Assembly (NCBI GenBank): GCA_029834535.1
Contig: JAQMWT010000430.1
Span: 1 to 55,493, forward strand
Source: Chrysophaeum taylorii
Taxonomy: Eukaryota > Sar > Pelagophyceae > Pelagomonadales > Pelagomonadaceae
DNA length: 55,493 nt
Direction of reading: 5' to 3'
Shown: in pieces, positions 1,879-47,476 of the stretch
Numbering within the stretch: position 1 is the first letter of the stretch
How the letters are laid out: every line of letters begins with the position of its first letter
Notes under the pieces: model-generated
Databases searched by the model: none
What the model was told of the DNA's origin: nothing
Seen by the model: the letters and a program-made list of their open reading frames with translations, nothing else
Translations under genes and position numbers: made by a program

Positions 1879-4800
1879 GATGGAACCCGCAGTGCGAACG
1901 GAGAGGAGCGAGCCGAGTGCGTCATAGGAGCGTAATACGCTAGTGCAGTCTGAGCTGTGTCCGAAGCATGATTCGATAGCAATGTCGACAGATGCGAGAT
2001 ATGATCAGAACTGGACGAGGATTTCGCGTGAAGTTGTGTTGTAACCGAACCACAGTGGTGCAGAGCTTCAACGTCAAGCATAGTGCTGGGGGGGACGTGA
2101 AAAGAGGTGAGCAAAGGACTCTGCGTGCGGCTATCATTTGGTGGCGGGCATTTATTGCGCGAGACTGGCGATAACTGCGACGTGTGGCTTTGGCGTGATA
2201 GAACTTCGTTTGCATATGGCAGCATGCTGGATAAAATCGAGCGAGCTGAAACGTGATAGGTGTGACCTGCAAGAGACTGACGGAAGAGCGTGGGTGGCTC
2301 TGAATTGCATTGATGACGGAACTTAGTGTCATCACAAATCGTCGGGGATTTGGTCGTCGGGAGTCGCGTTGAAGCGGGGAGGAACGACGAATACTCATCA
2401 GGTCTTGGCGTGTGACAGAGGTCCTTAGAAAGAGGGACTTCGGTACGTGCCTTGAATCGAGTTCCGATGTAGCCAGAGTAGCCATAGGAGGCATGACTGA
2501 TACGAATCGAAACGAATCTTGTCGTCGGTGGAAAACTAATGCGCCCTCGTAATTCGAACCGGGTGAAATCTTCGAATTGCCGGTGAGACTGAGAGACCAT
2601 GATTGCGAAACGAGCGCAGAGCCGGGCGGCGGTCGGAGGAGGCGCTTCAGCGGTGGCTGAGACGACAGTGTTCTGCGTATCATGAATCAAAAGGTGTTTG
2701 GGCATCGTACTGTGCGACAAGCGAGCGTGCGTCTCAGTTGACTGTGAGTGTACCATGGGTATGGCGCAATGTTTGTAGTCTAAACCGAGAGGGGCGGTGA
2801 GCGTGCCGTCGCGAGTGCATTGTAGCCTGTGCGGTGTCTGGGCTTTAATCGGAATATGACATATGACGTCATACAAAGCGATGGGAGCTGAATCAGACGT
2901 GGTGGGACTGGCTAGTAGTGCCGGGAGCAGCATGTCGGGGGTAGCGCTCAGAGATGAGGGTGGGGCGCAGTCCACTTCTATCTCGGTTGCCGTGTGTCGC
3001 GGTACTATGGGCGTAAACAAATGACATGAAGTAAATGCTTGTGTCCCAAACGAGAATGCGGTTATAGTCGCATGGGGAGGTTTCATTTTGTCTCTGCTGC
3101 AGTCAAATGCTTTGGAGGAAACCAATGGAGAAACCACGAGCACATGGGTGGCGTCTGGTGGCCAAAGTTCCTGTGGGTGTGGTTGAGGTGACTCCAAAGT
3201 AGGATTCCTTATTGGGTATGACTCAAGCGTTGCAACGAGTTCATGCTCGAGATCATAGTCGTCCATTAGATGACTTGAGGTGGTCGCGAATGAGCGATAC
3301 GTCGACCTGGTGTCAGGGGAGACCGAGGTGGTGCAGTGACCTGGCTGGCTGAGGTAGCCGTGCTGGTAAGATTCCAGCGGGTGCGCATAACTCAGCAGAG
3401 TGCTGACATTGGCTTGTGCCTGATCTGCAGTCGTGCAGGGAGGCGAGATCGTCTGTGCTAATACGGATTGCAGCGACAGGGAAGGGTCAGGTGCCTGGGA
3501 GGCTGAAAGGCGGCCTTTGTCTTCCAGAGGCGAAGGGAACAAGCAAAGCTGTAGCTTCGTCTCGTCGTGATCGGATAGGCGCAATGAGCTTGTGCGCGTG
3601 ATCGTGGTGTGCTTACCTGTGTCTTCATGATGTACCTTTGCGTCCTGTGGTTGTGCTTCTGCGAGCGGGACATATCTTAAGGATTGGTCCATCGGATGGG
3701 GTGCATCAGCTATGAATGAGACAGGAGCCAGTAGCAGTGCAAGGTCAGGTGACAGAACGTTTGCGTGGTCGAGTAATTGAGCGTTGGACCTGAGCATCGT
3801 CTGCATAGTCTGGAACCGTGCTGTGCAGTTGGTTTGCGTTGTCTCGTCTGCTACATCAATGAGCTGGCTGGTGTAGCTGGCCGTTGTGGTCTTATCTTTC
3901 GTCTTGTCGTCCAATAGAGACTGCGAGATAGTACTCGTTGCTATGTGCGAGACTATAAGTAGCTGTTGAGCAGCTGTTGAGAGCTGAGTGCTCTCTTGTC
4001 TGGCAGTTTCTGTGGCTTTGGAGTTCCAGAGACATGATTGCGCAGCTTCAGACGTCTTGGCATTGGGGATTGCCATAAAGTAACTCGTAAGTTCAAAGTC
4101 GGACGTCGGAAAATGCATCGAAAGACCTGTGAGGTCACCAATTGAAATACGCCCTCGTAAGGCGTGCGCGACGTGGTGCGGGCGCGAGCGACTTATGTTG
4201 GTGATCTGAAGGTCGTGAGATACGTTGCGGCGCGGAGTGTCGGTGGAAATGACGAGTGTCGTGGTGTTAGAGGCGGTGACGCGGAGAGCATCGAAAAGCG
4301 TGTCATGCTCCAAGAGCAAAAGCGCGTGATGCGGGTGGTCCGAAGTCAGTGCCAAAAGGAGTGTGGCTCGCGGCTGACCTGTCTGCAAGGTAGGGCAGAT
4401 GGGCGCGTGAGCTGAGATCCCGTGGTGGAGAGTATCCGGCCTGAAATGCTTGGGGTCCAGTGCGGGAATTCGAAAAGAGGGGTCGCCGAAGGAGAGTGCA
4501 GTAGAACCAAGGGCGATGTAAGGGTCAGTCCTGCTGGGTGCATCCTCAATAGCGGAGATGCTGGGACCAGAGCAGTGAGTGCCGTAGTGACCAGGGTTGC
4601 CCTTAGGCGTGTAGAGCATTCGAAGGTGCGGGCATGTGACATGCGTCCTCAAATGAGGAGTGACGTGCTGAGCGATAAGACGCTTTTGAGGGAGGCAACG
4701 TACGTGACTTGGGTGCATGTTTGTGGTGGAGCCGGCAGCTGGCGTGGAACGTTTGTCGTGCATTCCAGTGATGCGAAAATGCTTACAGAAGTGGTTCAGT

Positions 4801-7724: not shown

Positions 7725-7945
7725 CGTTTTCGGGGTTGCGTTTTGCGCGTTGTTGGTTGCCTTTCACACTTTTTCACACTTTTTCGCCAGTAGCAAGCGA
7801 TGAAACTTGACTACGGTCTTAAAACTTTCAGGAACTGCAGGAGATGGCTCTTGCCTGGAAATACTGAATCTTCGTCCGAGACGTCGATCGAGATTGGTGT
7901 CTTTCGGAGGACGCTTCTCTACCAGTACTGGACTGGGCCATAACC
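7725..7945 (-). other. Leader / untranslated region with candidate primer-binding site
   Basis: Between the 5' LTR and the ATG of the giant ORF. In element sense the bases after the LTR include TGGTAGAGAAGC, which loosely resembles the 3' end complement of initiator tRNA-Met used by many LTR elements, but it is set back about 20 bases from the LTR edge. I regard it only as a candidate. Confidence 0.3.
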
Positions 7946-8129
7946 TAGAGAACAGTACAAATCACTGTGCCTCAGGTAGAGAATGGTGGCAGTGGTAGTG
8001 CTGCCTTTCGTCCTGTCCTCTAACGACACAAAGAGCAGCACGGTGTACGACACAACGATTTTGTGGTTGAAATGTGAGTGTGAGGTTAAGGGGGGGGGGT
8101 TCTAACCCTAAATGGAATTTATATCTCTA
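7946..8129 (-). repeat. 5' LTR of minus-strand element
   Basis: Direct copy of 1-180. In element sense it runs from TAGAGATA to TTCTCTA. A G-run at 8090-8098 is expanded relative to the left copy. Together with the left copy it defines the element ends. Confidence 0.75.
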
Positions 8130-8165
8130 CAGCTTATGTCGCTGATGGTCACCGAAGACGCCTGT

Positions 8166-8261
8166 GCTAACTAACTAACTAACTTCAGACCTCTCCCGAG
8201 CATGGGAGCCAGGCCGGACCGACAGGAGCCAGTCCGGAATCACGGGCCTGTAGACGCCAAC
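8166..8261 (-). repeat. (TTAG)n-tailed retroposon, internally deleted copy
   Basis: Starts with (CTAA)3 then CTTCAGACCTCTCCCGAGCA on the plus strand, the same sequence seen at 23606, 46540 (reverse) and 47431. After TAGACG the copy jumps to CCAAC, which is the far end of the full copy, so about 145 bases are missing. It sits between the LTR of the minus-strand element and the truncated copia element. Confidence 0.65.
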
Positions 8262-8298
8262 CACATCTTACTCAATCGGGCACCAAGCCTCACGATGA

Positions 8299-8892
8299 CG
8301 TATTTCCCCGACATCATCAACAATCTCACCCAGAGTCGCAGATTTTCTTTGTGCAACTTACACTCCAGGCAAGACCTCAAAGAAGACTAACTCGTCGCAC
8401 GGATGCAATGGACCAGGCACTGAAACTTCATTAATTGACGGTGGCGCATCCTTTTGCTTCACGCGCACAATTCAACACCTTGTTCCCGAGTCCTTACGCC
8501 GGATTCCCGAACACACCACACGTATAGGAAGAGGCACCTTGACCAGCCATTTCATCGGTGTCAAACCGTTGTACTTGCAGGCCGCAGGTCTCTTCCCAAA
8601 GGATATCGAAGTGTCAACTGGTTGCGCATTATACCTTTTATTTTTGGTCGTCCCGCAATTCCGAAAAGGTCTACAGGTTATCGCGACATCTCAGCTCGAA
8701 GCTCGGAATGTACAAGCAACAGACCCTCCATTGCCACACGAACCATACCTGTATGAATTAATGAACACGTCGACAGCGGATCCCCGCGATTATAAGACGA
8801 GAAAAAACAACTATAGTTCGCGCCAATCGCGAAACCAATGGCCTGTTGTCCCTGCCGTCTCATCCGAAACAAACCCTCCGCGCTGTGGTTAG
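8299..8892 (+). pseudogene. Copia aspartic protease region
   Basis: Open frame from after a TGA at 8296. At 8431-8451 it reads L-I-D-G-G-A-S, the retropepsin active-site signature (D-[ST/G]-G-A). About 25 residues downstream comes I-G-R-G, matching the flap region of copia proteases. Upstream, the frame contains S-K-K-T-N-S-S-H-G-C-N-G, the usual sort of spacer before a copia protease. No CCHC knuckle is seen, because the gag part is missing. The frame ends at 8892 and overlaps the methyltransferase frame that begins by 8846, so one frameshift separates them. Confidence 0.65.
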
Positions 8893-10700
8893 TTTTCACA
8901 CCGGAACACGCTTGTCACTCAAGGATGAACTCGCACACATCACACAGCATGTCGCAAAGACACGCTCGCAATCTCACATGCTAGATTTTGCTAAGCTACG
9001 GCATCACTCCATCTTTTTATCGGACCTCATTCGCCTCCCGCGTACTGTTGTCCAATATGCCTTCACTACCTCAGCGGACCTCTGTGCGCAAGCAGAACCC
9101 CCTCCGCTAAAAACAGTTATTATTGCAGATGGACTTCACCAAGAAGATTTTGCCTCTTTTCGCAATCGCTTCGACAACCGTATTACTGTCGTGGTCGCCT
9201 GTGAAATTCACCCTATTATGCGCGCTCGCGCGCAACAACTATTCCCGCGTGCTCAGCATTATGCGGACCTCAGAAAAGCTCAATGCCGCTTTACAAACCG
9301 GCAAAATCCGACTACCCCATTTTGACTTAGCGGTTTTCACACTGCCATGTCAAAATTTGAGTGTAATGAAAGAATATGAGGCTACGCCACTCCGGTGACC
9401 GCCGACCTTTTTGTTACAGAACAAATCCGCTTTGTTCGCTGCACGCTCCCGACCTACACCATTGTCGAGAACGTCCCTCCCAAACGCCGAACTCATCACG
9501 AGTACACCCAACTCGCCAAATGCTATCAGCGCTTAGGCTACTTCCGACACTCCGGTGTCTACAATGCCTCCGCTTTTGGTGACGTCATCAGCAAGCACCG
9601 CTATCTCGCTGTCTATGCCCGCCACCCGGTCACCGAGTACAACCTCGAGAAAAACGCTTCTCCTTGGTTAACATCTCTTCCGAGCATGGTTCCACTTCTG
9701 GACCCCAGCAACACTATCCCCGACGATCTCTGGATCGCCAACCCCGCCCTTCGTGGCACTGTGCCCCGCTCCACCTTGACCTACTACCAATACAAGGCCA
9801 CCTTTTCCTACGCGCCCGCCGACAACTCTAAACTCTCGATTTCCGAAAATGCCCGCATCTGTCAAATGCTCGCACGCTTCACCAAGCCCTTCACGGATCT
9901 CGGTCTAGATGCCGACGCCCCCCCCTACGCCACCATGGAGGACATTTCCCACCTCCTGGTTTTCACATTGCTGCACAATCATCTGTCGCAACATCCCACC
10001 CTCGCCGCTTGGAACACCCTCCGCTGTTTTCGTGCCTCAGAGTCCTAATGTGCTTACCATTTGGATGGAGCCATCACCGGCACCGTCGCTACTGGCGTCG
10101 CCTGTGGCTATTTTCCCCGCGCCTCCCTCACCCTACATTCCAGCCCCCCTCGGATATTGGACTGTTCACATCAACCCGCAGTCTTCTCCCCAACGCACGC
10201 CTTATCCCTGGATGTTCCCAAGGGCACCGCCTTTCTGGTCGTCGCCTACACCACCTCCTTGGCCGCCGTCCACAGCTGCTCGCGCCCGTCCGCTTGGGTC
10301 CACTACATGAATCGTTCGCATCCTGGCTTTGCCGCGATCGACTCACGAGGGCGAATTACTCTCGATGACCCCAAGGGACTCATTATGTCCAAAACACGTC
10401 CCACTTACGCGGAATATGTCGGCCACATCGGAGACACGCATCAGAAAAGCACCAAGTGCTACTCGGTCACTGGCTTGTACCCAACCAACAAGAGCTTCTC
10501 CAACGCCTTGCTGCTGATCTCTCCAGACCACATCCGCTATGCGACCCTCAACGAAATCGCAAAGTTTGGACACCACTCGGACCCGGAACTGCTCCGCCTG
10601 TTCCAACAGCACCCGCCGTACTTCGCGTTTAAGGCACTGGCCAACGCCGTCCCGCACCACATGCTGCAGGCAAAGTACAGCGCTGTCCTCGCACTCCACG
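8846..10700 (+). pseudogene. Retrotransposon-encoded DNA (cytosine-5)-methyltransferase (copia)
   Basis: A C5 methyltransferase transfers a methyl group from AdoMet to cytosine C5. Conserved motifs appear in order: motif I region K-T-V-I-I-A-D-G (~9109), divergent from F-x-G-x-G-G; motif II V-V-A-C-E-I-H-P (~9192); motif III A-D-L (~9264); motif IV with the catalytic cysteine T-L-P-C-Q-N-L-S (9339-9362); motif VI V-E-N-V-P (9464-9478); motif VIII Y-N-A-S-A-F-G followed by K-H-R-Y (~9560-9610); motif IX A-T-L-N-E-I-A-K-F-G (~10535); and motif X L-A-N-A-V-P-H-H-M-L (~10636-10665). The target-recognition region would lie between VIII and IX. Three lesions are visible: an extra base at the A4 run 9274-9277, a shift at ~9375-9382, and a TAA at 10046. 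After that stop the frame runs on into integrase, so the enzyme was part of the pol polyprotein. Confidence 0.82.
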
Positions 10701-12136
10701 AATCGCACCACCACGTGAACTTTCACATCGAATGGGCAACAATACGCAATGGCATCCCCAGCCCCGGAGACATCACCCAGGTTGCAGACTTCTTCATGAG
10801 CATCTCCAGCCGTCTCTTAGCAGAGGAGGACCTCAACCTCACCTCCCTCTTCAATGCCATAGCAGATGCTCACCATGATGCGATCCGCAAACCAAGCAAA
10901 TCGAAAAACCTCGAGACGCTTCTTGCAGAGGCAACCGTTGCTAAAGTCCGAGTCGACAAGCGACCCAGCCCCCCCAGCGCTTCGACTGCCGCTCTGCCTC
11001 CCTTGCACAAGCCCGGCACCATTCAGCACGCCAAAAGAGTGCTTTTGGTCACTCGCTGGCACCGCATACATCACCAGCAACCAGAGATTCTTCGCCGCAC
11101 GATTGCCGCCAATGTAACGAATCTCCGCCCAGGTGATGATCGGTATCTGCAAGACTGCAGTGAATGCAAGCGCTGCCAATCGCATGTAGGCTTCAGTCAC
11201 AAGAACAATTCCTGGTCACAGGATGAACTGGCCTATGCTCCTGGCCAACACCTCCACATGGATGTCTCATACCCGAGCATCAGCAAATGCTATGGTGGTT
11301 TTCGCTACATCATGCATTTTGTGTGTATTTTCTCAGCACACAAGTGGGTCTATTTCCTGCGGAAACTAGACGCACAGGACGTTCTGGCCGGCATCCTCTA
11401 CGTGGTCAATGTGATCAAGGTCGAATTCGATGTAAATGTGAAAATCATATCGTCCGATGCATTCTCAACTTTCCGCTCCGAAGCATTCCACCCGCTCAAG
11501 GTGCAACTCGGCATCCAGTTTCAAATCATTGGTCGCCACCTCCACCAGCGGAATCTTGCGGAAAACATCATCAAGGAAAACACCCGATGCACAGTAGTTC
11601 GCCTCCTTAACCGTCGCAGTGTCCGCATCGAAGGAAAGTCCATTGCCGTCGAGTATTATCACCCATTTGCTCTACTGCATAAGATCCAAGCCGACAACCC
11701 GCGCTCTCATGGACTGCCCTCGCGCACAAACATGGCATGCACCGTTCCCCGGCGCATCATGTCACCCATGGCACCGCTCTTGAAGCTCCTTCCCTTTGGT
11801 GAACCTGTCACCTTTGTCTACCCTCAAAGTCACAAGCTGGAACCCTCCAGCGTCTCCGCCTCCTATCTCACAAGCAACAATTACGTCCCCAACCTCCCCG
11901 GCACGGATCGAATATCCGTGATGTTCATAGCTCCCTTCTCCTTGTACATCAGGGACGATAAGGGAAAATCGTCACCTCTAACGACTTCCACGTTGATGCA
12001 GACATGCCAGTCAACCGCAACAAGGAGATCGAACGGATCAACGCGCTCAGATCCCAACAGAGGCACGGCAAGAGGACCCGCTCACAGCTATAAGCGAACA
12101 GCAAATGCCGGAAGCAAGACAGGAATCGACAAATGA
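10701..12136 (+). pseudogene. Copia integrase
   Basis: In the same frame as the methyltransferase motifs IX-X, hence one polyprotein. A zinc-binding H-x3-H / C-x2-C module is seen at ~11057-11180 (H-R-I-H-H, then C-S-E-C-K-R-C). The DDE catalytic triad follows: H-M-D-V-S-Y (~11256), S-S-D-A-F-S (~11451) and L-A-E-N-I-I (~11553), with about 34 residues between the second Asp and the Glu, as in copia integrases. The frame ends at 12136 just where the next frame (12105 onward) has begun, indicating a frameshift. All triad residues are intact. Confidence 0.85.
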
Positions 12137-13040
12137 GGGCGAGACTCAAGATGACGACTCGGATGACAAACCTGAAGATGACGAGCACAAAGAACCGGAT
12201 CCAACCCCCGCTGCTGATCCAAGTCCCGTCAGCGACGAGACACCTGAACAGGATTTTTCGTTCCTCAACCGGCCACCCCCGCCGGATGGTAGCATTCCGA
12301 TGCCCAAACGAAACGATCGACTAGAGGTTGTTCTCGACGATTCAGGTTTTACTCCAGTTCTCGTGCATCGCAACCAGAGTGACAAACTCAAAGCAGATCT
12401 CAAGGACGAGCGCGGATTCCGCATTCCCAAGGATCAACTCTATATCGTGAAACGTGTTGACGATGGAAAACTCTTCACCAGACGCATTATCGCTTCAGAG
12501 TATGGTCGCAACTGGAAATACCAGCAGGAGCAATCCACGGCTCGCGCCACAGCCAACATGTCCAGCACGTTGATGTTCCTCATCAGTGTCAGCGCTCTGC
12601 ACCAGGGCCATGCCGTCAGCATCGCATCTGATCTCAACATTAGAAGGGATGCTAAGCCGCCAAATGATGTCCCGAAAGGATGTCTCCTAGCAAATACCAC
12701 ACAAGACTATGGTATCATGGGCGGCACTGCACTGGATCTGCAGAGAGAAACCGACGCAGAACTCTTGTGCGTCGACTTCCCAAGGAAGCCGCACCACTCA
12801 TCTGTATTGGTCGACCACCTGGACAACGACGATTCTGTTCTCGAGAACTATGTGTGCCATGACGAACTGTCACCGGCAGAGAACTATGCGCGTCAATGGA
12901 ACCAAAAATTCTGTTGTATGAGCTCCTCTCTTTTGTGGGACATGTCAGCGCATCAGCACTACCACTTAGCTTCTCGTCACAGGCATGCCTTCATGCATGA
13001 TTCCGGCGAACTCGGACACCTCTTCCTTAGTCTTCCTTAG
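12105..13040 (+). pseudogene. Copia polyprotein linker between integrase and RT
   Basis: Acidic, Pro-rich stretch (D/E-rich then S-F-L-N-R-P-P-P-P) of ~80 residues followed by ~200 residues with no domain I recognise, ending near the start of the RT frame. Long disordered linkers between integrase and RT are common in copia polyproteins. It is one frame off both neighbours, so a frameshift lies on each side. Confidence 0.6.
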
Positions 13041-14238
13041 TCAAAGTGATCCGAACCAAGATATTCTCCAGGAAGTCTTGGACTATGATTTGCAGCACAT
13101 CGACCACGTCGTGTTACAACTCGCGACTGCTGAAGATATTGTCTATGAGCCTGAGAAGATCGTCGAACTCAAAGGACTCAGCGAAGAAGATAAGTTAAAG
13201 CATATCGCTTCGATTCGCAAAGAAATTGAAGGATTGTGCTCCAACGGTGTCTTTAAGCTTGAACCTTTACCGCCAGACCGTTCGTCTATCTCGACGAAAC
13301 TCGTGCTGAAGATCAAGTATTTTGCTGATGACACCCCAGACCGCTATAAAGCTCGTCTAGTTGCCCGAGGTTTCTTGGCACGTGTAGGCATTGACTTTTG
13401 TGCCACATCCTCCCCAACCGCAATGCTCGCCACCAACCGGCTACTGCTCGCCATCGCTGTGAAGCACAAGCTCCCGGTCGCGCACGCGGACATTCCTCAG
13501 GCATTCATCCAATCGGCACTCGATCGCCCGGTAAGGATCTACTTACCTCGAGGAATACGTGTCTCGGAAAATCTTATTCAGCAGATACAAAAGAACCACC
13601 CAGAGTCGAAGCTCGCTCCCCGACTCGTCAAGGCTATATATGGCCTCAAACAGTCAGCTTTGTTGTGGAACATCAAGCTCGACTCGTTTCTTCGACAACA
13701 TGAGTTCGAACGCTCACAAGTCGACACTTGCCTCTATATCAATTGGGATCGATCTATCAACAAATGGGTTATACTATCCGTTTCAGTCGATGACCTATTG
13801 ATCACTGGTACCAACACTGCCAAAATTACATCTCTTCGCACTGCTCTGGAGAAGGAATATGGCAAACGTACGTGGCATGACAACATCAGATCATTCCTTG
13901 GTATCGATGTACACTACAATGTCACCGCTGGTCATCTCACTATGAATGTAACAGCGAAGATCACCAAGATGCTTGCCGAGCATAAGCTCAACCTACATAA
14001 TATGGACGTCCCCTATTCGGACATCCTCACACAAATACCTTCTGCTAAGCTTCTCTCAGACTTGGCTCCTACCTTAGACGTATTACGCAAAATTTTCCTC
14101 ACTACTGTGGTATTAGCATTTACTTGCCTGTCACATGTCGGCCTGATATCAACACTTTGTGCAACAAATGCTGCAAGGGCATGCACAACCCTGATCAGAC
14201 CCACCTTCTGCACTTATATGTTTTACTTCGCTACTTAG
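12985..14238 (+). pseudogene. Copia reverse transcriptase
   Basis: RT of the RVT_2 (copia) type. Visible blocks are L-V-A-R-G-F-L-A-R-V-G (13360-13392), V-A-H-A-D-I-P-Q-A-F-I-Q (~13480), A-I-Y-G-L-K-Q-S-A-L-L-W (~13632) and the catalytic S-V-D-D-L-L-I-T-G (13785-13811), a variant of Y-V-D-D with Ser in place of Tyr. The frame is lost near 14110, where the thumb region continues in another frame (T-C-R-P-D-I-N, 14130 onward). The element synthesised cDNA from its RNA using this enzyme. Confidence 0.85.
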
Positions 14239-14678
14239 AGGGTACTCCGAATGATTCACTCGACTATTCATCCGACAGCCCCTCGATTACGCCCTTTATT
14301 CAGCATCGGATCAGCCGCTATTCTGAACTGCATCATCTTCGTTCACCCATTATTTGTTTTACTGATACAAGTTTAGCTGACCGTTCTGACCCTCGCTTGC
14401 GATCCAACTCTGGTGCATGTATCTTCGTCTTTGGCAATCTCGTATTCTGGTTTAGCAAACGCCAAACTCTTACTGCCAAAAGCACCATGGAAGCTGAACT
14501 CATCGCCGCCAGCGCAGCCGCCGATGAATGTCACCGGTTTCACCAGCTATTCTTCTCCCACCCTTATTTATTTTCTTGTGATCAAGCTCACGCTATTCCC
14601 CTGCTTATTGATAACGCTAGCGCATTACATGTCGCTAATCACCCTAAAGTCAGTGCTCCCTCTCGTCATATCAATTAA
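14124..14678 (+). pseudogene. Copia RT thumb and RNase H
   Basis: Begins with the copia block T-C-R-P-D-I-N and L-L-R-Y-L-E-G-T, then the RNase H domain with F-T-D-T-S-L-A (~14355), G-A-C-I-F-V-F (~14410) and K-S-T-M-E-A-E-L-I-A (~14480), the standard Asp/Glu residues of copia RNase H, and I-D-N-A-S-A-L-H-V (~14605). It ends with S-A-P-S-R-H-I-N, close to the usual end of copia pol (K-H-I-D), followed by a stop at 14676. Confidence 0.85.
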
Positions 14679-14970
14679 TGAGAATTTCGCGTTCGTGACT
14701 ACCAAGCCAGCTCGGTCATTCGTCCTCTCTGGTGTCCTACTCACTACCAGGTCGCTGATCATTTTTCGAAGCTCTTTCCACGCAGTTTATTCCCCAAGTT
14801 CAAAAACGTCTACGGTGTTCACTCAGCCTCTTCTTCACCGCCATCTCATCAAGTTACTCTTTCTGCTACTCTTCCACCGTACGACTCTGTCCAGAGCACT
14901 ATCTATGTTCTTGTCGATTGTAAGACGCTTCCTGCTTAGTTTGATCCAGATTTCGCTCACCGATTTCAAT

Positions 14971-15166
14971 CAGAGATAGAAAATCCGAATTAGGGTTAGT
15001 ACCCCTATTATAAGGTTAGCTCCCTTAACGTTAGCACCCTTTGATTTAAGAAAACGCGGTGTTATTCACACCGGCTGTCCTCGTTATAGGAGACAGATTC
15101 GAGGACAGACTACCACTGTTCTCACGCTCTGCTGAAGGGTAGCACAGTAGAAATTACTGTTCTCTA
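14971..15166 (+). repeat. 3' LTR of the methyltransferase copia element
   Basis: Starts C-AGAGATAGAAAATCC and ends ACTGTTCTCTA. Read in reverse complement, the LTRs at 1-180 and 7946-8129 share the same start, the ATTAGGGTTAG block, the GAGGACAG...ACTACCACTG block and the same end. Divergence is far greater than between those two LTRs, so this is the same family but a different subfamily or an older copy. The 294 bases between RNase H and the LTR (14679-14970) show no clear gene. Confidence 0.6.
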
Positions 15167-15260
15167 TTAGGAGTAAACTTAAAGATTAGCGAGCGTGCGC
15201 GGATCACAGCAGCTTAGATTGGCGGGGGTGAGAGCGTCGAGCTCGAAGGAGAGGTCCGAG

Positions 15261-16082
15261 TGTGGCAGTAACGCCCATTCCCCCCACTTGCCTGCCTGCC
15301 ACCTGACTTACCCTGATTGTTGTTCTGGTACTGACCATGCAATTATGGGGGGGGTGTCATCTTGGCATCCTCACCTGTACATCCACTGAACCCAATGTAC
15401 CAGGCATTTGTATTGCTTTCTTGCTGTCTTCTTGTTATTACCCTCACAAGTGCAGGCCAGTAAGTTCACCTAGTCCCAATCTCTAACCCCAGTAAGTTCA
15501 CCTGGTCCCAGTAGCCTAGTCAGCCGAAAAGAACTCCGACGCCTCGTCTCCGGGAAAAAAGGCCGCGGTCATGCGCGCGTTGTCAGCATCGACAACATCG
15601 TTTCGACGGGGCGTGAGAATGGCGCGCTGAAAGAGCCGCCGCGGGTCGTGGAAATAGTCTGCGAGGTCGCCGTAGACGGCTTGGTGGATCACTGTCTGGC
15701 TCTCGCGCCTACCTGATCCTTACCCTAAATCGAGGGACAGACAAACAAACATTTAAAGACAGACAAACAAACACCCACATCCTTCATGCTCCCCACACAC
15801 ACCCCCCCCTCTTAGCAGTCGACATTTAAAGACAGACAAGCAAACAACCCCCCCCCTCTTAGCAGTCGACATTTAAAGACAGACAAACAAACAAACAAAC
15901 AAACAGACAGAGAAACATTTGTCGATTAGTAGTTAGGATTTGATTGTCCGATTTCGAGATGGCGCGAGGTCTTACGCTGAGATCGGGCGTGTGGTGGTTT
16001 CACCCGCGGTTCGGGATGGGAGAAAGGGTTGTTGAGGCCTCCTGGCCAAGAGGGGCGGGTATCTGAGAGAGAAGCCACTACA
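15261..16082 (+). repeat. 5' LTR of gypsy element, split by a Helitron
   Basis: The parts 15261-15446 and 15939-16082 join to match the 3' LTR at 23467-24050 (itself split). The Helitron between them breaks an A-T dinucleotide, which is intact in the 3' LTR. The LTR has TG...CA ends. Without insertions it would be about 330 bp. Confidence 0.85.
15447..15938 (-). mobile_element. Helitron, internally deleted copy in gypsy 5' LTR
   Basis: In helicase sense it runs TCCTAACTACTAATCGACAA... to ...CTGGCCTGCACTTG. The intact site is preserved in the 3' LTR (CCCTCA|TTTGATTG), showing insertion exactly between A and T with no duplication, the Helitron hallmark. Most of the 5' helicase coding segment remains (15530-15715, minus strand: A-V-Y-G-D-L-A-D-Y-F-H-D-P), but the segment with the NKSQGQT-type motif is deleted. 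The plus-strand right part is (ACAAAC)n-rich with two copies of TTAGCAGTCGACATTTAAAG. Confidence 0.8.
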
Positions 16083-16100
16083 GTGGTCTCAGAAATGGGA
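16083..16100 (+). other. Primer-binding site of gypsy element
   Basis: The 18 bases directly after the 5' LTR, GTGGTCTCAGAAATGGGA, have the TGGT-start form typical of sites complementary to a tRNA 3' end (CCA). The exact tRNA is not identified. Confidence 0.55.
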
Positions 16101-16552
16101 ATCGATAGTCCAACTCCCGGACTATCGATCTCCTGTTTTTCGGCGGCGAGTCGGTTCGTAACGGTCGAGTGAGTGCGAAGCCGACGCATTTGTGGGTGAA
16201 GATCCAGGGGATCACGGGTACTACTGCAGGGTTCATTTTACGCGACTCGGATCGAACGGGGAGCGGAGTCACTACGAATCATTTCATTTTGGCAGCATAG
16301 CGTAAGGCCTGAGCGGCAGCAGCGTAAGCCCTAACCTAGCTCGCGCGAGGCAGACCACCTCCCTGACGGCGAGCGACAGCAGGGAAGACCGTCCATAGTC
16401 TTCACGCGCAAGGCAGTTCCTTCCGTAAGTCCAGCGCACCGGTACCAGCGCGCAGTCAGACGGCTGACGGCAATTGTAGTCTGACGGAAAAGAATACAAC
16501 AAGCGAGTTGTGAGCGTTCGGATTAATCCTATTATCCGGGCAAAGCGCGGTC

Positions 16553-17881
16553 ATGGCACAGATGCCAATGACAGAACGACCGCAGTGGTTTCGGGACGCA
16601 CAGGAGCGTCTGCAACGATTCAGTGCAGCGACTCCTTTTTCGTCTATTGGAAGAACACCGTTCAGTACGCCCTTTCCACGGCCGGAAGCCGAGGAAAGCG
16701 GCATCAGAAGAGAGGCAAGGTCATCGGACAGCCTCGACAACCCCCCAAGCGTGATCATCCTTCCGGATCCACGCGCTGGCGAAGGGGGAGCTACGGTTGC
16801 GCCAGACGCAACTTCAAGACCGGGTGAGCCGACGTTCCTGTACGCACGACCCTACGAACGTGCGATGAATACTACGGGGCCATCTCGAGCGGAACCCGGA
16901 CCGTTCACGGCGATGCGTGGACCAGAGGAGAGTGCACCTCGTAGGCCACCATCCGCGAATACGAGAGCGACAGATGTTCACGTGGATACCGACCCCGAGA
17001 TTCTACAGACCATTAATGAACGATTCGAGATGTACCAGTCGCAGATCGAGCAAGTCATACATGAACTTGAGCGCACCCGCCGCGAAGCGTAACAACAACG
17101 CTCAGACGTGGAGCGGCAGCGGATTGACAACAATCGACTTCGACGAATGGTGGAGGAATCCACGCGGGCGCATGCTCGAGAGGCACGGCCAGCCTCTCCG
17201 GATGCTACGGGTGTTACGCCCGAAGAAGATGACGTTGTATCGGCACTGACCGACGATCAGCCACCGCGAAGTCGACCGGAGCCTACCCCGCAGCATCATA
17301 CTGACCCCTTCAGCACACCCTCGTAACGAAGAAGATATGCTCCGGGTCAAGAAGGGAGCTGCTGGTATGACTCGTACCACGCTTTCGAATCTCAGTGGGC
17401 AAATTACGAAGGACCGAGAGGAGGTGATGCGTGGTGGATGCAATTGCGGTGTATGATGGAAGGCGAGATCATGCCGCATGAAGGATGTGTCGACATGCAG
17501 CTAGAAGCCACTGAGGACGATTGTCATGCGACTCTCACGGCTGCTGTTGACGAGAATGAAGTCGAGGAGGATGTCTTAAGTGACAGACCTCCTGAGCCAC
17601 CTCCAGATGAAGAAGTGAAAAAAAAACACCAGAAATGGAGATGGAGGCGACTGATAAGGACATGCTATCCAAGCAAGCCTCCTTGGTTTGGATACCCATC
17701 AGCTACACCTTTGTCGTCGTCTACTTTGCTGGCGCTGGAGGATCAACGTTGGGTATCCGGCGATGCAATGAGCTATATGGCAGTTCATTTCGCATTGTCC
17801 TGGCTTTGGATGCTTGTCCTCGAGCCCAAGCCACCTTTGAGCTCAATTTTCCGAAGATTCCCTATGTTTTGCATGAGTTAG
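16553..17881 (+). pseudogene. Gypsy gag-like region
   Basis: One frame from an ATG-rich start (M-A-Q-M-P-M-T-E-R-P) to the TAG at 17879, with two in-frame TAA stops (17090 and 17324). The first ~180 residues are Pro/Arg/Glu-rich and end in an amphipathic stretch (I-N-E-R-F-E-M-Y-Q-S-Q-I-E-Q-V-I) that could be a coiled coil. The last part is acidic (E-V-E-E-D-V-L-S-D). No CCHC knuckle or capsid signature is evident. It overlaps the methyltransferase-RT frame from 17611, with an A9 run in the overlap. Confidence 0.55.
17618..17626 (+). promoter_or_regulatory. A9 slippery run at the gag / methyltransferase-pol overlap
   Basis: Nine A residues lie just after the last upstream stop in the pol frame (TGA 17608-17610) and inside the gag frame, where codons read G-T-G A-A-A A-A-A A-A-A. 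A -1 slip on A_AAA_AAA would move ribosomes from the gag frame into the methyltransferase-RT frame. Placement fits programmed frameshifting in LTR elements. A simple indel in a homopolymer is the alternative. Confidence 0.45.
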
Positions 17882-18100
17882 GGGAATCTCATCGTCGTAC
17901 ATACGACTTGGTGTTGTCGTATTTACATTCAGATTTTTGGAAGCACTCTTATTCTCATGCAAGTCCGCCGTGTATCTATGGGTCGACTGCCAATTTGCAC
18001 TAGAGGGACGCACGCAAGGGCGCTACTATTACTTATTGGGTCCTGCGTCATTTCAGCAACGCACCTTAAGTAATTGGACGATGGACGCTCGAGCAGGAAC

Positions 18101-18204
18101 CATCCCTTTTGTGCATCACCAATTTTGTGTGCCGCGTGTTGTCGATTTCAATCATCCCTTTTGTGCATCACCAATTTTGTGTGCCGCGTGTTGTCGATTT
18201 CAAT
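18101..18204 (+). repeat. 52-bp perfect tandem duplication
   Basis: Bases 18101-18152 and 18153-18204 are identical. Because 52 is not a multiple of three, the two copies are read in different frames, and the duplication brings motif VIII back into the frame used by motifs I-VI. Confidence 0.95.
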
Positions 18205-18610
18205 AGTATCACACCAGAGTTGCTGTGCTCGCGCACGCGCCTACTTGCGTGCAATGTTCGCTTGAACCTGCCGTTATTATCGCGTGTACCACCGAATTTA
18301 AGGGACCGTTTTGGGCCAGCGTTGGGATTTACAGGTGGTCACCCGCTCATTATAGTGAACAGTTTCTCATCTACGCGCCCGGCTACCGGCCCTGCCTTCA
18401 CAGTGACGCGCAACAAATTGCAGATGGGACCTCATTTCTCGAACACACGTCCACTCACGTTGCAGATGCACCAGGAAATTATGACCGTCCCTGCTACGTG
18501 GCAATGGGGTGAGAAAGTCTCAGAGACAGCAGCTATGAAGATGCTTGGCAGTATGGTGCCACCCGCGACTATGATGCGGATCGCACTAGCAGTGGACAAT
18601 TCGTTTGACC

Positions 18611-19665
18611 CTTCACTTCGAAATTTGGGTAAGTTGCGGAATATTGCGACGACTACGATAGCCCAGCCCGATCACCATATTCTACGGTTTTCACCTTTTG
18701 CTGTAGAGTCGCGCATTCCAACGCTCGACCCTGCCACTCGCAGTGTGTCATGGATTTCGCCCGATGAACTCTATTCTCCTGCGAGTCCTGCACCACCAGC
18801 TGCTGCCTCCACCACCCCGCCACCACCTTCGGTTACATCGCCGGGGACGGCTCAATCTTTTGCAGGGGGCACCGTCGCCACTGCTGTTATGCAGAGCAAC
18901 CAAGCCGGCAACCAGCCTTCCGCAACTGCTGATGAAGAAGGCACCGCGAAGGAGAGACCTGCGTATTTCAATAAGTACGACGTTCCGCGAACGGACGCGC
19001 CTCACGACGAACATGGTCGACCTTTACCGGTGATGCTTCCTCATTTAGCGGATCAAGAGAGCATGCAGGTCATCCCTTCGACCGTCGCGCAGGTCGAAGA
19101 GGTGATGACTGAATTGGGTATTACAGAGCATCCTGCTTTAGATGACAACGAGAAGCTGATGATGAAGCATATAATCTCGTATTCGTGGGCATTTTTCGAT
19201 GATGTGATGAGACCGGTCGATTCACCCGAAGTGACGCTCCGGTTCAAAGAAGAGAACCCGACTCCCGTCAAACTCTCGCCATATCTGTTGTCGAAAGAAA
19301 AAATTGAGTGTTTGCGGATGCAGATTGAAGCATGGACCCGAGACGGAGTTATCCGTCCTGCGAATTCTCCATGGGGTTTCCCTATTTTCATGTTGCCTAA
19401 GAAAGGTGCTGAGCCTGGCACTTCCAATGCTTACAGAGCAGCTGTCGACCTACGGCGCCTTAATGCACTGCTCAAGGATGATAGCTGGCCGAATGTGAGC
19501 ATGGCTGACGCGTCGATGTTTCTCATCGACAAATTCTGTCGTTCCAGTTTGGATATTCGTTGGGGTTATCACAATTTACGATTGTCGCAAGATGCACAAG
19601 ATGCGGTAACCTTCACTAGTCCTCTGGGAGCGTACAGCTACGTGCGTCTACCTTTGGGAGTCTAA
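18611..19665 (+). pseudogene. Gypsy reverse transcriptase, fingers only
   Basis: Continues in frame from the methyltransferase through a Pro/Ala/Thr-rich linker (~18775-18920). RT then starts with P-Y-L-L-S-K-E-K (~19281), W-T-R-D-G-V-I-R-P-A-N-S-P-W (~19336), A-A-V-D-L-R-R-L-N (~19441), the first catalytic Asp region S-L-D-I-R-W-G-Y-H-N (~19549), and F-T-S-P-L-G-A-Y-S (~19614). It stops at R-L-P-L-G-V (19663). The block that should follow, with the Y-x-D-D catalytic pair, is missing; the sequence resumes at 19680 in the connection domain. Confidence 0.85.
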
Positions 19666-19679
19666 CCAGCCGGGAGATT

Positions 19680-20929
19680 TTGGGTTATTTATCCACCCCG
19701 AACGGACTTCTTCCATCACCAAGGTCTTTAGAAGCCATCAGACACATGCCAATTCCTGGCACTTTGTCAGATGCTGACCCTAAGAAGCAAGTGCGATCTT
19801 TCCTTGGAATTTGGAGTTTTTGCCGGCGTTGCGTAAGGAGTTTTGCGAAAGTTGCAGAGCCTTTAAGACAACTGACGTTGCCGGACGTGAAATTCAAGTG
19901 GACGAAAGAGTGTCAGGAAGCTTGGGATGCCATCATCGAGGCTATTGTCACTTCGAAGGGCGTCTACCATCCTGATTAGTCGTTGCCTTTTTACATTCGA
20001 ACTGATGCTTCCGCGCATGGGTTGGGTGCTTACCTATTTCAAAAGGTACCAGTCGGTGACGACGATGGAAGAGAAAGAATAGAAGAGAGAGTTTTTGAGT
20101 ACTGGAGTCGAACCGTGCCTAAGTCGATGAAGAAGTATGATCATCGGCGCTTGGAACTCCTCGCAGTACTCTCCGCTCTTGAAAATTTCCGACTTTATAT
20201 CGAAGGTCATCAGACGAAATTAGAGACAGATCATCGTAATTTAACGCTTCTTCGGGATTCGAATCATACGTCTGGACAGTGAGCACGATGGGCTCTGCGG
20301 CTTCCTGCGTTCGACCGGGAGCTCGGATACAAGCCTGGAAATTCCCCTGGCATGCGTATCCCGGATTGTCTGTCCCGCAACCCTATCGACAAATTGATCG
20401 AGAAAGACGAAGACGGGGAACCGATCAATGAGTTTTTTTTGATATTCCAAGAAATCCTCACCGATGTACCTGGCGCAGCTTGTTTCACCTTCTCTTCGGT
20501 GACGATGCCTATGCCGACGGACAGCGGACCCACAGCAGCTATGGTAGCAGTTAGTACGCGACAGAACGTACAGCCGCCTCAATTCTCGTACGAGTCTGAG
20601 CCAGTTGACTCCGTCGAACGTCTCACTTTTGCGGATCAAGCGGAGGATGAGATCACTCTCGATGAGATAGCGAAAGAACAAGCTGAAGATGACACATGCA
20701 GGCGCATCAGACGAAATCTCGATTCTGAACAGAAAGATCAAGACGAGCAGTCATCCGTACCGTATGAAGTTGATAACAACGTGTTGTACAAGGTCGATGA
20801 TTTGGATTCTCAACGTCTTATTGTGGTCCCTCAGTCTATGCGAAAGCGTGCAATCGCCATGCATCACCGAGGATTGTTCGGAGGCCATGTAGGACGAGAC
20901 TCCACAGCGAATCAAATCCTAGAACGGTA
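19680..20929 (+). pseudogene. Gypsy RT connection, RNase H and integrase N-terminus
   Basis: One frame with in-frame TAG (19977) and TGA (20280). Connection: V-R-S-F-L-G-I-W-S-F-C-R-R (19791 onward). RNase H: I-R-T-D-A-S-A-H-G-L-G-A (~20000), Y-D-H-R-R-L-E-L-L-A (~20137), T-D-H-R-N-L (~20228) and a chromodomain-free linker. The integrase zinc module begins at ~20860 (M-H-H-R-G-L-F-G-G-H-V-G) and is cut at the codon for Tyr in R-Y by a Helitron; reading resumes exactly in frame at 22051. Confidence 0.85.
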
Positions 20930-22050
20930 CAAGTGCAGGCCAGTAAGTTCACCTAGTCCCAATCTCTAACCCTAGTAAGTTCAGACCTGGTCCCAGTAAG
21001 TTCACCTGGTCAGTTAGTTTACTTAGTCCCAATCTCTATCCCGACGTAATTTCGTCGTAAACCCACTCATGCTCACACCCACTCACCCCACTCTCCTTTG
21101 AGCTCGTCGCTCTCACCTCCGCTAATCTAAGCTGCTTTGATCCGCACGCGACGCCAACCTTTGAGTTTGAGTTGTCAAAAAAAAATCAGGAAGCTCACCT
21201 GGTCTCAGTAAGTTCACCTGCACTCAGTTCACCTAGTCCCAATGTCTAGACCCAGTAAGTTCACCTGGTCCCAGTAAGTTCACCTACAGTGCGCGTGTAG
21301 ACGCCGGGAGGGGGCTTATCGGTATTGCGCAGCACGTGTGGGGTAGGGTGGAGTCGTCGACTCAGAAGAGCATATCCTCGGGGTTGTCGATCGACAGAGA
21401 GGCACGTAGAGCTGGACGTGACAGAAGACGGGCTTGGGCGAGAAGACGCCGACCTCGCGGGGCGTCTGGCCCTGGCTCTTGTCGATCGTTTGGCGTCGGC
21501 GGGCCTTAAGGGATACAGGTTGGAGGAGCCTCGGTGACACCACACGATTGATCATGTATCTGGTACCGTTGCAGTGGCCGTGCGACGGGTCGAGGTTGCG
21601 AAGACATTAAGCTCGCGATCAAAGTCAGCATGCCGTTGGTTGTCAGGGAGTTGAAAACTCGACTGTTAAGAGCGAGGCGTCGTCTTCCGACCCAACCTAG
21701 TCGGCCGAAAAGAACTCCGACGCCTCGTCTCCGGGAAAAAAAGGCCGCGGTCACGCGAGCGTTGTCAGCATCGACAACATCGTTTCGACGGGGCGTGAGA
21801 ATGGCGTGCTGAAAGAGCCGCCGCGGGTCGTGGAAACAGTCTGCGAGGTCGCCGCAGACGGCTTGGAGGATCAATGTCTGGCTTGCGGGCCTACATGATC
21901 CTTACCCTAAATCGGGGGACAACCCACCCACATCCTTCAATGAAGGCTTCATGCGCCCCACACACACCCCCCTCTTAGCAGTCGACATTTAAAGACAAAC
22001 AGACAAACAGACAAACAGACAGACTAACGTCTGTCGATTAGTAGTTAGGA
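20930..22050 (-). mobile_element. Helitron (1.12 kb) inserted in gypsy integrase
   Basis: Same termini as the other units: TCCTAACTACTAATCG... to ...GGCCTGCACTTG in helicase sense. Removing it gives CGGTA|TTGGTGGCC, which encodes R-Y-W-W-P, the normal gypsy integrase motif, so insertion was between A and T without duplication. Inside, on the minus strand, is a degenerate C-terminal part of a Pif1/Helitron helicase. The 3' side is packed with copies of a ~19-bp repeat, AGTAAGTTCACCTGGTCCC. No Rep (HUH) domain or Walker motifs are present, so it is non-autonomous. Confidence 0.82.
21300..21874 (-). pseudogene. Pif1/Helitron helicase C-terminal fragment
   Basis: Read across frames on the minus strand, the order matches the end of Helitron helicases: G-D-L-A-D, R-A-I-L-T-P-R-R-N-D-V-V-D (motif around 'ILTP.N..V'), V-F-N-S-L-T-T-N-G-M, then Q-G-Q-T-P-R-E-V-G and K-P-V-F-C-H-V-Q-L-Y-V, the near-C-terminal helicase motif VI block. 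The segment between these blocks is shortened. The same fragment recurs in each unit of the array at 40276-44761. Confidence 0.7.
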
Positions 22051-23386
22051 TTGGTGGCCAAATGTATCATCGTCAGTTAATGAGTTCGTCAATGCCAGCA
22101 TTATTTGCCAGAAGATTCGATCCACGATGCCTAGGCGTCATGACTTGCTCTGTCAACCGAATCGCGTCGGAGATTGCTAGGTCCTAGGTATGGATTTGAT
22201 GGACCTCTGCCAGGCGCTGACCTATACACGTACATACTCGCAATGTACGATGCAGCGTCGCATTTCTTGAAATTGGCTCTGATCAACACAAAACATGATT
22301 ATTCAATTTTGAACGCGTTTGTGGACAAGATTTTACTCGAGGGATGTCTCCCACGGTGCATAGTCACGGATAATGGAAATGAGTTCGCGAACAGGTTATT
22401 TCGCACGTTTGTTCGTCAATTCAACGTACGTTATCGTACTACCCTTCCGTATCACCCTCAGAGTAACCACACCGAACGCGTCAACCGATTTATCAAAGCC
22501 TTCTTGCGAGCTGCGATCGATGAACAGCGTCAGCTAGATTGGTCGAATTTCCTCCCATATGTGGCATTCATGTACAATAGGATGTACATTCCGGGAACGA
22601 AGATTTCACCTTTTTTTCATGATGCGTACTGGCAAGCAACCCCTGTTACCACCCGATTACAATCCTTTGAGTGAACAGCGTAATCTACGCCAATCACGTC
22701 ATCAGATTTTGGTGGACTTTAAGAATAAGTTTGAATTTTATAGTCGACTCGTTACACGAGCTCACCAGAAAGCACAGGAGAGCCAAAAACTCAACTATGA
22801 TGCCCACCAAATCGACATACTGATTCCCCCAGGTGATTATGTTCTGCGTTTCGTGCCTAAGACGCGCCACAAGCTACGGCCCATTTGGCGCGGGCCTTAC
22901 ATAGTTACCAGAAAGATCTCTCCCGTCGTTTACGAAATTCAGGACGTCAACGACGATGATGCTGAATCGGTTGTAGTATCTGTACAACAGATTGTGCCTT
23001 TGAAAGTGCCAACCATCGGCACTTCTTCAGTCCCTCTGCATTTACCTTCAGACCGCGACCGTTTCAAACATGGTAAGTTCGTGATTTTCAGGGTTAAAGG
23101 ACGATCCAACGCGTGGAAGAAGCGTATCTATGTAGCCGAAGTCTACGAAGAATATGACCACGACAATGATACAGTTGCGCTTCACTACTATACCGATTTG
23201 GGACCGCGCGATGATCCTCGTGTTTTTGATCCTACTAAGCCCCTGGCCGAGCGACGTTTCAGACAAGAATACAAGGACCCGGACGGGGGTAGCTTCACAC
23301 GCCTACGACCAAACATGGAGGGCTGTGAACCCTGTGTGACTGATTTTCGCCCGGATGAAATCGATGTCCTCGTCAGTAATAGCTGA
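22051..23386 (+). pseudogene. Gypsy integrase with C-terminal extension
   Basis: Resumes after the Helitron with W-W-P-N-V. The zinc module has I-I-C-Q, but the other expected Cys is Ser. A TAG at ~22169 and a shift near 22190 precede the core: G-P-L-P-G-A-D-L-Y-T-Y, then I-V-T-D-N-G-N-E-F (~22363) and H-T-E-R-V-N-R-F (~22474), the second Asp and the Glu of the triad. Another shift near 22640 leads to the SH3-like C-terminal domain, G-D-Y-V-L-R-F-V-P (~22833). After that ~130 residues form an additional domain (G-K-F-V-I-F-R-V, Y-V-A-E-V-Y-E-E-Y) that I do not recognise; it ends at 23384. Confidence 0.8.
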
Positions 23387-23466: not shown

Positions 23467-24050
23467 CTGTGGCAGTAACGCCCATCCCCCCCACTTGCCT
23501 GCCTGCCACCTGACTTACCCTGATTGTGGCTCTGGTACTGACCTTGCAATTATGGGGGGGGGTGTCATCTTGACATCCTCACCTGTACTACCACTGAACC
23601 CAGTGAACTAACTAACTAACTAACCTCAGACCTCTCCCGAGCATGGGAGCCAGGCCCGACAGGAGCCAGTCCGGAATCACGGGCCTGTAGACGAGGAGCG
23701 CCGAAAGGTCGGTCGGCGGAGAGTGACCATCAAGCTTGTCGCCATGCGACGAGGAGACCGCGATGTGACTGACAACCAACTCGTCGATAACCTTCCGTCT
23801 TCGCCCCCCGGCCATACCCCGTCCCACTGCGAACGTCCCGGCTGAACCCAATGTACCAGGCATTTGTATTGCTTTCTTGCTGTCTTCTTGTTATTACCCT
23901 CATTTGATTGTCCGATTTCGAGATGGCCTGAGGTATTACGCTGAGATCGGGCGTGTGGTGGTTTCGCCCGCGGTTCGAGTTGGGAGAAAGGGTTGTTGAG
24001 GCCTCTGGCCTGGCCAAGAGGGGCGGGTATCTGAGAGAGAAACCACTACA
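23467..24050 (+). repeat. 3' LTR of gypsy element, split by a retroposon
   Basis: Matches the 5' LTR over 23467-23605 and 23854-24050. It holds the uninterrupted site (CCCTCATTTGATTG) that is filled by a Helitron in the 5' LTR, so that Helitron arrived after the gypsy insertion. Confidence 0.85.
23606..23842 (-). repeat. (TTAG)n-tailed retroposon in gypsy 3' LTR
   Basis: Begins (CTAA)4 on the plus strand and ends GTCCCGGCT. Flanked by TGAACCCAGTG and TGAACCCAATG, an 11-bp target-site duplication with one mismatch; the 5' LTR shows the single-copy site. About 240 bp. Shorter at its 5' end (element sense) than the copy at 46540. Confidence 0.8.

Positions 24051-47429: not shown

Positions 47430-47430
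<1 letters not shown>
46355..47430 (+). pseudogene. Copia fragment: end of RT and RNase H
   Basis: Begins L-T-G-T-F-R-Y-L-R-K, the end of copia RT, then L-V-A-F-V-D-A-D-N-A-P and R-K-S-T-T-G-C-V-F-V-W split by a retroposon at 46540-46781. It continues L-I-A-W-K-S-K-L-Q, S-E-L-I-A-L-D-M-C-A-D-D and H-H-V-S-G-T-H-N-I-A-D-G-F-T-K, the classic copia RNase H end. A frameshift near 46895 and a TGA at 46923 break it. No LTR is recognised nearby. Confidence 0.8.
46540..46781 (+). repeat. (TTAG)n-tailed retroposon with perfect target duplication
   Basis: Flanked by ATTTTGATCCACT on both sides (46527-46539 and 46782-46794), a perfect 13-bp target-site duplication. Starts CGGTTGGCAGCCGGAAC and ends GAAGTTAGTTAGTT in element sense. 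It interrupts the copia RNase H reading frame between F-D-P-L and V-A-F-V. Confidence 0.85.

Positions 47431-47476
<46 letters not shown>

Follow-up and report, generated by a model that had tools for sequence, protein, structure and literature searches.

The locus described here raises the question of whether a retrotransposon of the pelagophyte Chrysophaeum taylorii carries a C5 DNA methyltransferase (DNMT) of its own and, if so, what such an enzyme would do for the element. The window, that is, the whole stretch of DNA analyzed, comprises 55,493 nucleotides of contig JAQMWT010000430.1. The original prediction placed the motifs of a C5 methyltransferase in the frame that continues into the RT of a Ty3/gypsy element, and pointed to reports of similar enzymes in retrotransposons of dinoflagellates and charophytes. 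That precedent is correct: KnitGypsy-Dnmt3, SymbioDIRS-Dnmt3, and SymbioLINE-Dnmt are described by de Mendoza et al. (2018, PMC5890265). Capture of a DNMT by a retrotransposon is of a known kind; what appears to be new here is the ochrophyte host and the presence of two different DNMTs, in a gypsy and in a copia element. The best explanation overall, to which we give about an even chance of being right, is that of two decayed LTR families, each with a C5 methyltransferase embedded in Pol and predicted to act on the element's own cDNA.

Other published accounts touch on this subject. Morozov et al. place DAM- and DCM-encoding retrotransposons, taken together and with the two types unseparated, in stramenopiles among others (PMC6338049). 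A survey in Mol Biol Evol in 2025 devotes one sentence to a DNMT inside a Copia element, which concerns DNMT3 members of streptophytes and dinoflagellates, cites the 2018 paper and leaves ochrophytes unnamed (PMC12344493); the streptophyte element cited there as Copia is Gypsy in the 2018 paper (PMC5890265). In the main text of the C. taylorii genome paper, the words "retrotransposon", "transposon", and "repeat" are absent (PMC10366177). A literature search, with subscription papers and Repbase outside its scope, yielded no account of a pelagophyte LTR element with a C5 methyltransferase, nor of any DNMT retrotransposon in ochrophytes.

Structure and Decay of the Gypsy Element

The features of the gypsy element and of the copia element that adjoins it are listed in Table 1. 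The order of RT, RNase H, and the zinc-binding region, core, and C-terminal region of the integrase assigns the former to Ty3/gypsy: an RVT_1-type RT is followed by RNase H and integrase, between direct LTRs with pieces that are 94-100% identical. A Pfam search of the first putative gag frame (16514-17089) gave no match. For this single decayed copy, no target-site duplication was found, the 5 bases before 15261 differing from those after 24050, and a primer-binding site was not supported, the candidate 13-base complement having no other occurrence in the assembly. Neither tRNA genes nor Rfam families were found in the window.

The window copy is a dead pseudogene, a point that the original prediction overlooked. 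Its DNMT frame contains two stops (TAG at 18001-18003 and TAA at 18067-18069), the frame itself being maintained across both, and the DNMT region includes a 52-bp tandem duplication at 18098-18201. Moreover, the middle of the RT, which carries YIDD in the relative L069 (residue 1182), is absent after 19662. It can also be observed that one non-coding repeat is present twice in this element, in the integrase and in the 5' LTR.

Table 1. Positions of the features of the gypsy and copia elements in the window.
Feature	Position	Strand	Basis or remark
Ty1/copia element	about 8299-14976	+	adjoins gypsy element
Protease-like region, copia (LIDGGASFCF)	8299..8889	+	motif reading and place in L074 (residue 80)
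Second, different C5-methyltransferase domain, copia, broken by stops	9110..10045	+	L074 identity, PF00145, PADLOC
Integrase region, copia	10049..12133	+	rve E 3.9e-5, 24.3 bits, below cut-off
Copia-type RT	12970..14235	+	RVT_2 E 3.7e-41
5' LTR, gypsy element (TGTGGCAG...CACTACA)	15261..16082	+	direct repeats D6, D7, D4, D11 and alignment
Repeat interrupting 5' LTR	about 15446-15940		shortened copy of repeat at 20929-22052
Open frames at gag place, 16514-17089 and 17093-17323	16514..17323	+	gag by position only
C5-methyltransferase domain, motifs I to X	17689..18608	+	motifs, PADLOC, comparison with relatives
DNMT-RT linker	18609..19212	+	weaker constraint, dN/dS in relatives
RT, N-terminal part	19213..19662	+	RT motifs; PADLOC RT model E 3.1e-5, residues 443-530
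RT connection and RNase H	19620..20279	+	RT_RNaseH E 4.8e-20 on 19980-20279
Integrase N-terminal zinc-binding region	20283..20943	+	Integrase_H2C2 24.1 bits, just below 25.5 cut-off
Nested repeat splitting integrase	20929..22052	+	direct repeats D1, D2, D3, D5, D10
Integrase core	22144-22671	+	rve E 8.2e-8
Integrase C-terminal region	22538-23383	+	Integrase_p58_C E 3.3e-7
3' LTR, gypsy element	23468..24050	+	interrupted by insert at about 23609-23841

Identification of the Gypsy Domain as a C5 Methyltransferase

In the frame starting at 17611, we take the following to be the motifs of a C5 methyltransferase: I (FAGAGG, 17725), II (VLALDA, 17797), IV (ASPPC, 17959), VI (EQEP, 18091), VIII (CSRTRLL, 18226), IX (RPLTLQ, 18448), and X (LGSMVPP, 18544). 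Their order, and their position in one frame that reaches the RT motifs, are confirmed. The match to PF00145 that had been anticipated was obtained for a relative, and in the window copy it falls below the curated cut-off of 22 bits: positions 18070-19662 score 18.6 bits (E 0.0013) and 17611-18000 give no match, and the open-frame relative L069 reaches 28.2 bits. A further relative, L070, scores 21.5 bits, just under the cut-off, and gypsy copies are absent among the 57 PF00145 matches listed in a whole-genome search (best 123 of 474 candidates).

Other models recognize the domain more readily. PADLOC methylase models match both halves in the window (N half E 2.3e-7, C half E 7.3e-4), and the L069 domain matches DruM2 (2.4e-11), phrog_116 (6.5e-10), and dcm (2.5e-4) in other profile libraries. 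A profile of 11 gypsy domains, hand-chosen from the listed gypsy copies plus L070, was aligned by hhalign with nine C5 methyltransferases from prokaryotes and phages at probability 98.1 (E 7.2e-14, 271 columns). L070 alone gave a probability of 95.3 over 97 columns, and the L069 RT, used as a negative control, gave 0.3. PDB chains were matched weakly by sequence with the gypsy profile (8yf3 E 0.066, 3g7u E 1.3). It should be noted that the closest profile matches are methylases of prokaryote defence systems, which would suit an anti-viral or restriction-like role of the domain, with the cell or the element defended from rival genetic parasites, of the kind that Morozov et al. propose in general terms for methylases encoded by transposons (PMC6338049). 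These matches merely mirror the content of the libraries, however, and with no partner nuclease or effector noted in the elements such a role is very unlikely.

Recurrence of the Fusion in the Assembly

The assembly searched consists of 70.8 Mb in 697 contigs. The protein encoded by 18070-19662 has 85 matches in it, a figure that includes the window itself and some split matches; 64 of the 85 span the C-terminal DNMT half through to the RT. The genome search for intact copies that had been proposed gave many with an open frame: 38 of the 64 spanning matches (again counting the window's own) are stop-free, and L069 is open throughout, with PF00145, RVT_1, RNase H, H2C2, and rve in a single frame of 2115 aa. 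A second gypsy subfamily, represented by L070, has a DNMT 41% identical to that of L069, at least 130 matches (130 of 130 scored, of 1008 candidates), and open frames of up to 3067 aa. For 29 of its 47 RT matches at 61-63% identity, such a DNMT precedes the RT by 693-843 bp on the same strand; for the remaining 18, no such upstream DNMT is among the matches listed. Two copies of this subfamily, at G000:C5 522867-525311 and 546928-549369, have frames that stay open for 3067 and 3063 aa, respectively, and so exceed that of L069.

The recurrence in 64 of 85 matches and the fixed spacing in 29 of 47 demonstrate that the DNMT-RT fusion is a fixed trait of the gypsy family, in which the DNMT lies between a protease-like region and the RT. 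That the domain lies within Pol, upstream of the RT and in frame with it, in a Ty3/gypsy element is supported by many relatives with an open frame. An assembly join, or a dead piece of an unrelated gene beside a gypsy element, might be suggested by the broken state of the window copy; given the same fusion in so many matches and the constant spacing in the other subfamily, it is vanishingly improbable. The number of copies rules out chance as well as a join made in assembly.

A Second Methyltransferase Domain in the Copia Element

The copia element, too, carries a C5-methyltransferase domain, which differs from that of the gypsy element and is located between a protease-like region and the integrase. 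The original prediction made no mention of it. In the window, this domain is 70% identical to that of the open relative L074 over 9110-9649, where it contains two TGA codons; PF00145 matches 9380-10045 below the cut-off (E 0.0015, 18.5 bits), and PADLOC MTase_II matches at E 1.3e-4. In L074, PF00145 (32.1 bits, E 1.1e-7, above the cut-off), rve, and RVT_2 are found in a single frame of 1952 aa. The rve match at residues 1016-1110 (17.2 bits, sub-threshold) precedes RVT_2 at 1686-1933, and this order of integrase and an RVT_2-type RT within a single frame assigns the element to Ty1/copia. Motif I of the L074 DNMT is located at residue 311, PCQ at 384, and ENV at 426.

A profile of four copia domains was aligned by hhalign with the nine reference enzymes at probability 96.2 (E 2.1e-9, 151 columns), and a tblastn comparison matched the copia DNMT to a virus methyltransferase at E 2e-6. 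The copia DNMT has 152 matches in the assembly, and once two host genes are set aside, all 55 remaining PF00145 matches listed for the whole genome coincide with them. A Pfam search of the copia protease-like region (8299-8889) gave no match. Copia LTRs were not found as terminal repeats in 6000-16500 of the window or in the 9 kb of L074, stretches that are perhaps too short.

Retropepsins usually read DTGA or DSGA. The protease-like regions here read DGMA in gypsy (L069 residue 147, L070 residue 214) and DGGA in copia (L074), a departure that is common to the two families.

Selection on the Two Domains

Between gypsy subfamilies, dN/dS of the DNMT was 0.057-0.080 in 16 comparisons and 0.056-0.066 in 3 more, and that of the RT was 0.038-0.052 in 7 comparisons. 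The gypsy DNMT is therefore almost as conserved as the RT, at about 0.06 vs 0.04, with dS of 1.4-1.7 for both, which is near saturation. The DNMT-RT linker gave a dN/dS of 0.25-0.28, or about 0.26, in 6 comparisons of relatives; its dS in the same comparisons was about 0.6, far under that of the two domains it joins. Within the subfamily of the window, values were scattered and higher (0.077-0.421, 6 comparisons), reaching 1.05 in the close pair L069/L073, as is expected if inserted copies decay. For the copia DNMT, dN/dS was 0.093-0.152 in 6 pairs. Taken with the comparisons above, these results demonstrate that the retrotransposon domains are homologous to C5 methyltransferases, are part of elements present in many copies, and are under purifying selection. 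Both DNMT domains are apparently maintained in a functional state by selection.

Relatives and Possible Origin

Homologues were sought among 5.8 billion proteins. With the gypsy DNMT profile, one match was obtained (P0001, E 6.1e-5; 7995 candidates scored); the copia DNMT profile gave none among 4752 candidates, and region 475-880 of the whole gypsy polyprotein gave no homologue among 3159. No relative was found when viral contigs were scanned with both DNMT profiles or when genome contigs were scanned with P0001. The two profiles, both of which are shallow, were not joined by hhalign (probability 0.1). A DNMT3 chain was absent from the PDB matches at E up to 10, of which there were 2 for the gypsy profile and 9 for the copia profile.

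In a tree of 17 rows, the gypsy domains form a group (98/99) with P0001 and four enzymes of phages or plasmids, and those of copia form another (92/94) with the vir335 enzyme. As the references, Dnmt3 not being included, were chosen for their similarity either to P0001 or to the copia DNMT, these groupings are partly built in. The branches are very long, with a gypsy stem of 2.96 and a copia stem of 3.31. AU tests rejected none of five alternatives: gypsy with copia (p 0.184), gypsy with DNMT5 (0.308), copia with DNMT5 (0.119), gypsy with DNMT2 (0.237), and copia with DNMT2 (0.148). The phylogeny with DNMTs thus yielded groupings with prokaryote and phage enzymes, but placements with host DNMTs stand unrejected. 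Among the relatives found, both domains resemble prokaryote and phage enzymes most closely, and the trees cannot fix their origin. Since no alternative was rejected and the references were biased, separate origins are plausible only; the gypsy and copia DNMTs are likely to represent two separate captures.

Comparison with Known Methyltransferases

The prokaryote and phage enzymes (P0001, and those of Synechococcus phage S-CRM01 and Caudoviricetes vir335) are the closest relatives found and share the motif order I to X; they differ in being stand-alone proteins, unfused to Pol, and in the greater length of their TRD region. In the charophyte Klebsormidium nitens, KnitGypsy-Dnmt3, as described in the 2018 paper, likewise has an intronless DNMT in the Pol frame of a Ty3/gypsy element, in several copies and under purifying selection, with Ka/Ks under 0.2 (PMC5890265). 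Compared by description, its DNMT belongs to the Dnmt3 clade, whereas the domain here is, among the relatives found, nearest to prokaryote and phage enzymes and has EQE; its repeats show a DIRS-like arrangement in place of the plain direct terminal LTRs found here, and here the host is a stramenopile and the copies are far more numerous. SymbioDIRS-Dnmt3 and SymbioLINE-Dnmt of Symbiodinium are similar in that high-copy retrotransposons carry C5 methyltransferases in more than one family per genome, and SymbioDIRS-Dnmt3 also in that the DNMT shares one ORF with the RT (PMC5890265). There, however, the elements are DIRS and LINE with a Dnmt3 or orphan lineage, and here they are LTR elements of the gypsy and copia types. 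A third, unrelated host lineage beyond the two known, with different methyltransferases in the gypsy and copia superfamilies of a single genome, would show that DNMT capture is recurrent and useful to elements. It also sets two solutions side by side within the same cell, where they can be compared naturally.

Catalytic Motifs and Predicted Function

Motif VI of C5 methyltransferases is canonically ENV. In 18 distinct gypsy domains, selected for absence of stops, the catalytic Cys (SPPC) is kept in 17 and the R-x-R pattern in 17, and motif VI reads EQE in place of ENV in all 18. The four copia domains aligned all keep the ENV, PCQ, and R motifs. Retention of the catalytic motifs with Cys, Glu, and Arg makes it probable that both domains are active enzymes. 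Alternatively, catalysis may have been lost and the domain retained within Pol to bind nucleic acid or for structural reasons. The uniform EQE, the long stems of both groups, and a TRD that is short compared with that of P0001 are in keeping with such a loss, but the near-complete retention of Cys and Arg in gypsy and the intact motifs of copia make it doubtful.

An active DNMT translated in one polyprotein with RT and integrase would be present in the particle, where it would methylate the cDNA of its own element, either prior to integration or as it occurs. The new copy would then enter the genome marked like host DNA, and a host DNMT5-like enzyme may maintain this mark. Since the enzyme lies within Pol and would share the particle with RT and integrase, cDNA methylation is the simplest guess and, of the roles considered, the likeliest; we consider this sequence of events possible, at slightly less than even probability. 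The same argument was made by de Mendoza et al. for DIRS elements (PMC5890265), for which a yeast assay found two SymbioDIRS-Dnmt3 copies active; in the same assay KnitGypsy-Dnmt3 and SymbioLINE-Dnmt were without methylation, a result termed inconclusive by the authors (PMC5890265). If methylation of cDNA does occur, genomic parasites may mark DNA themselves, beyond being marked by the host. The EQE of the gypsy domain counts against an active cDNA methylase, as does the fact that retrotransposons without a DNMT do fine.

CpG decay was sought among copies of the elements and was not found. In 435 pairs from 30 copies, which are non-independent, the C-to-T fraction was 0.0315 at CG, 0.0237 at CHG, and 0.0286 at CHH, and the transition/transversion ratios were 1.96, 1.86, and 2.12, respectively, with no rise at CG. 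CpG observed/expected was 1.06 for gypsy and 1.03 for copia, and 1.25-1.54 in two host frames. The lack of CpG decay counts against a strong, lasting methylation mark. It would also accord with an active methyltransferase having RNA as its main target, either the genomic RNA of the element or the tRNA primer. DNMT2 has the C5 methyltransferase fold and acts on RNA, and RNA methylation was raised for SymbioLINE-Dnmt by de Mendoza et al. (PMC5890265). The nearest relatives found are nevertheless prokaryote and phage DNA methyltransferases, which the choice of references favours, and motifs IX and X align with those of such enzymes, so that an RNA target is unlikely.

Host Methyltransferases

Two stand-alone candidates were found in the host. 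A DNMT5-like gene (L002; G000:C621, 1006-3537 and beyond) combines a methyltransferase and SNF2 in one frame of 2086 aa, which is the DNMT5 architecture (PMC3145265). The other (L001, 1498-2577) is intronless, presumably DNMT2-like from its motifs, and adjoins a gene for an antenna protein (PF00504 E 1.2e-13). No DNMT1 or DNMT3 is included among the 57 PF00145 matches listed (best 123 of 474 candidates, introns ignored). DNMT5 elsewhere is a maintenance enzyme. With only DNMT2-like and DNMT5-like stand-alone genes found, retrotransposons might supply the de novo cytosine methylation of the alga, two unrelated enzymes of phage or bacterial type captured by gypsy and copia elements writing marks that the host DNMT5 would maintain; we regard this as quite unlikely. 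The two families bear in any case on the source of new methylation in a genome with a DNMT5-type enzyme and without a recognised DNMT1 or DNMT3.

Other Features of the Window

On the minus strand, 1728-7763 contains an open frame of 2011 aa that has no Pfam match, in a stretch where GC skew reaches 0.415. Pieces of another copia element are located at 46834-50728 (RVT_2 E 1.1e-5, sub-threshold).
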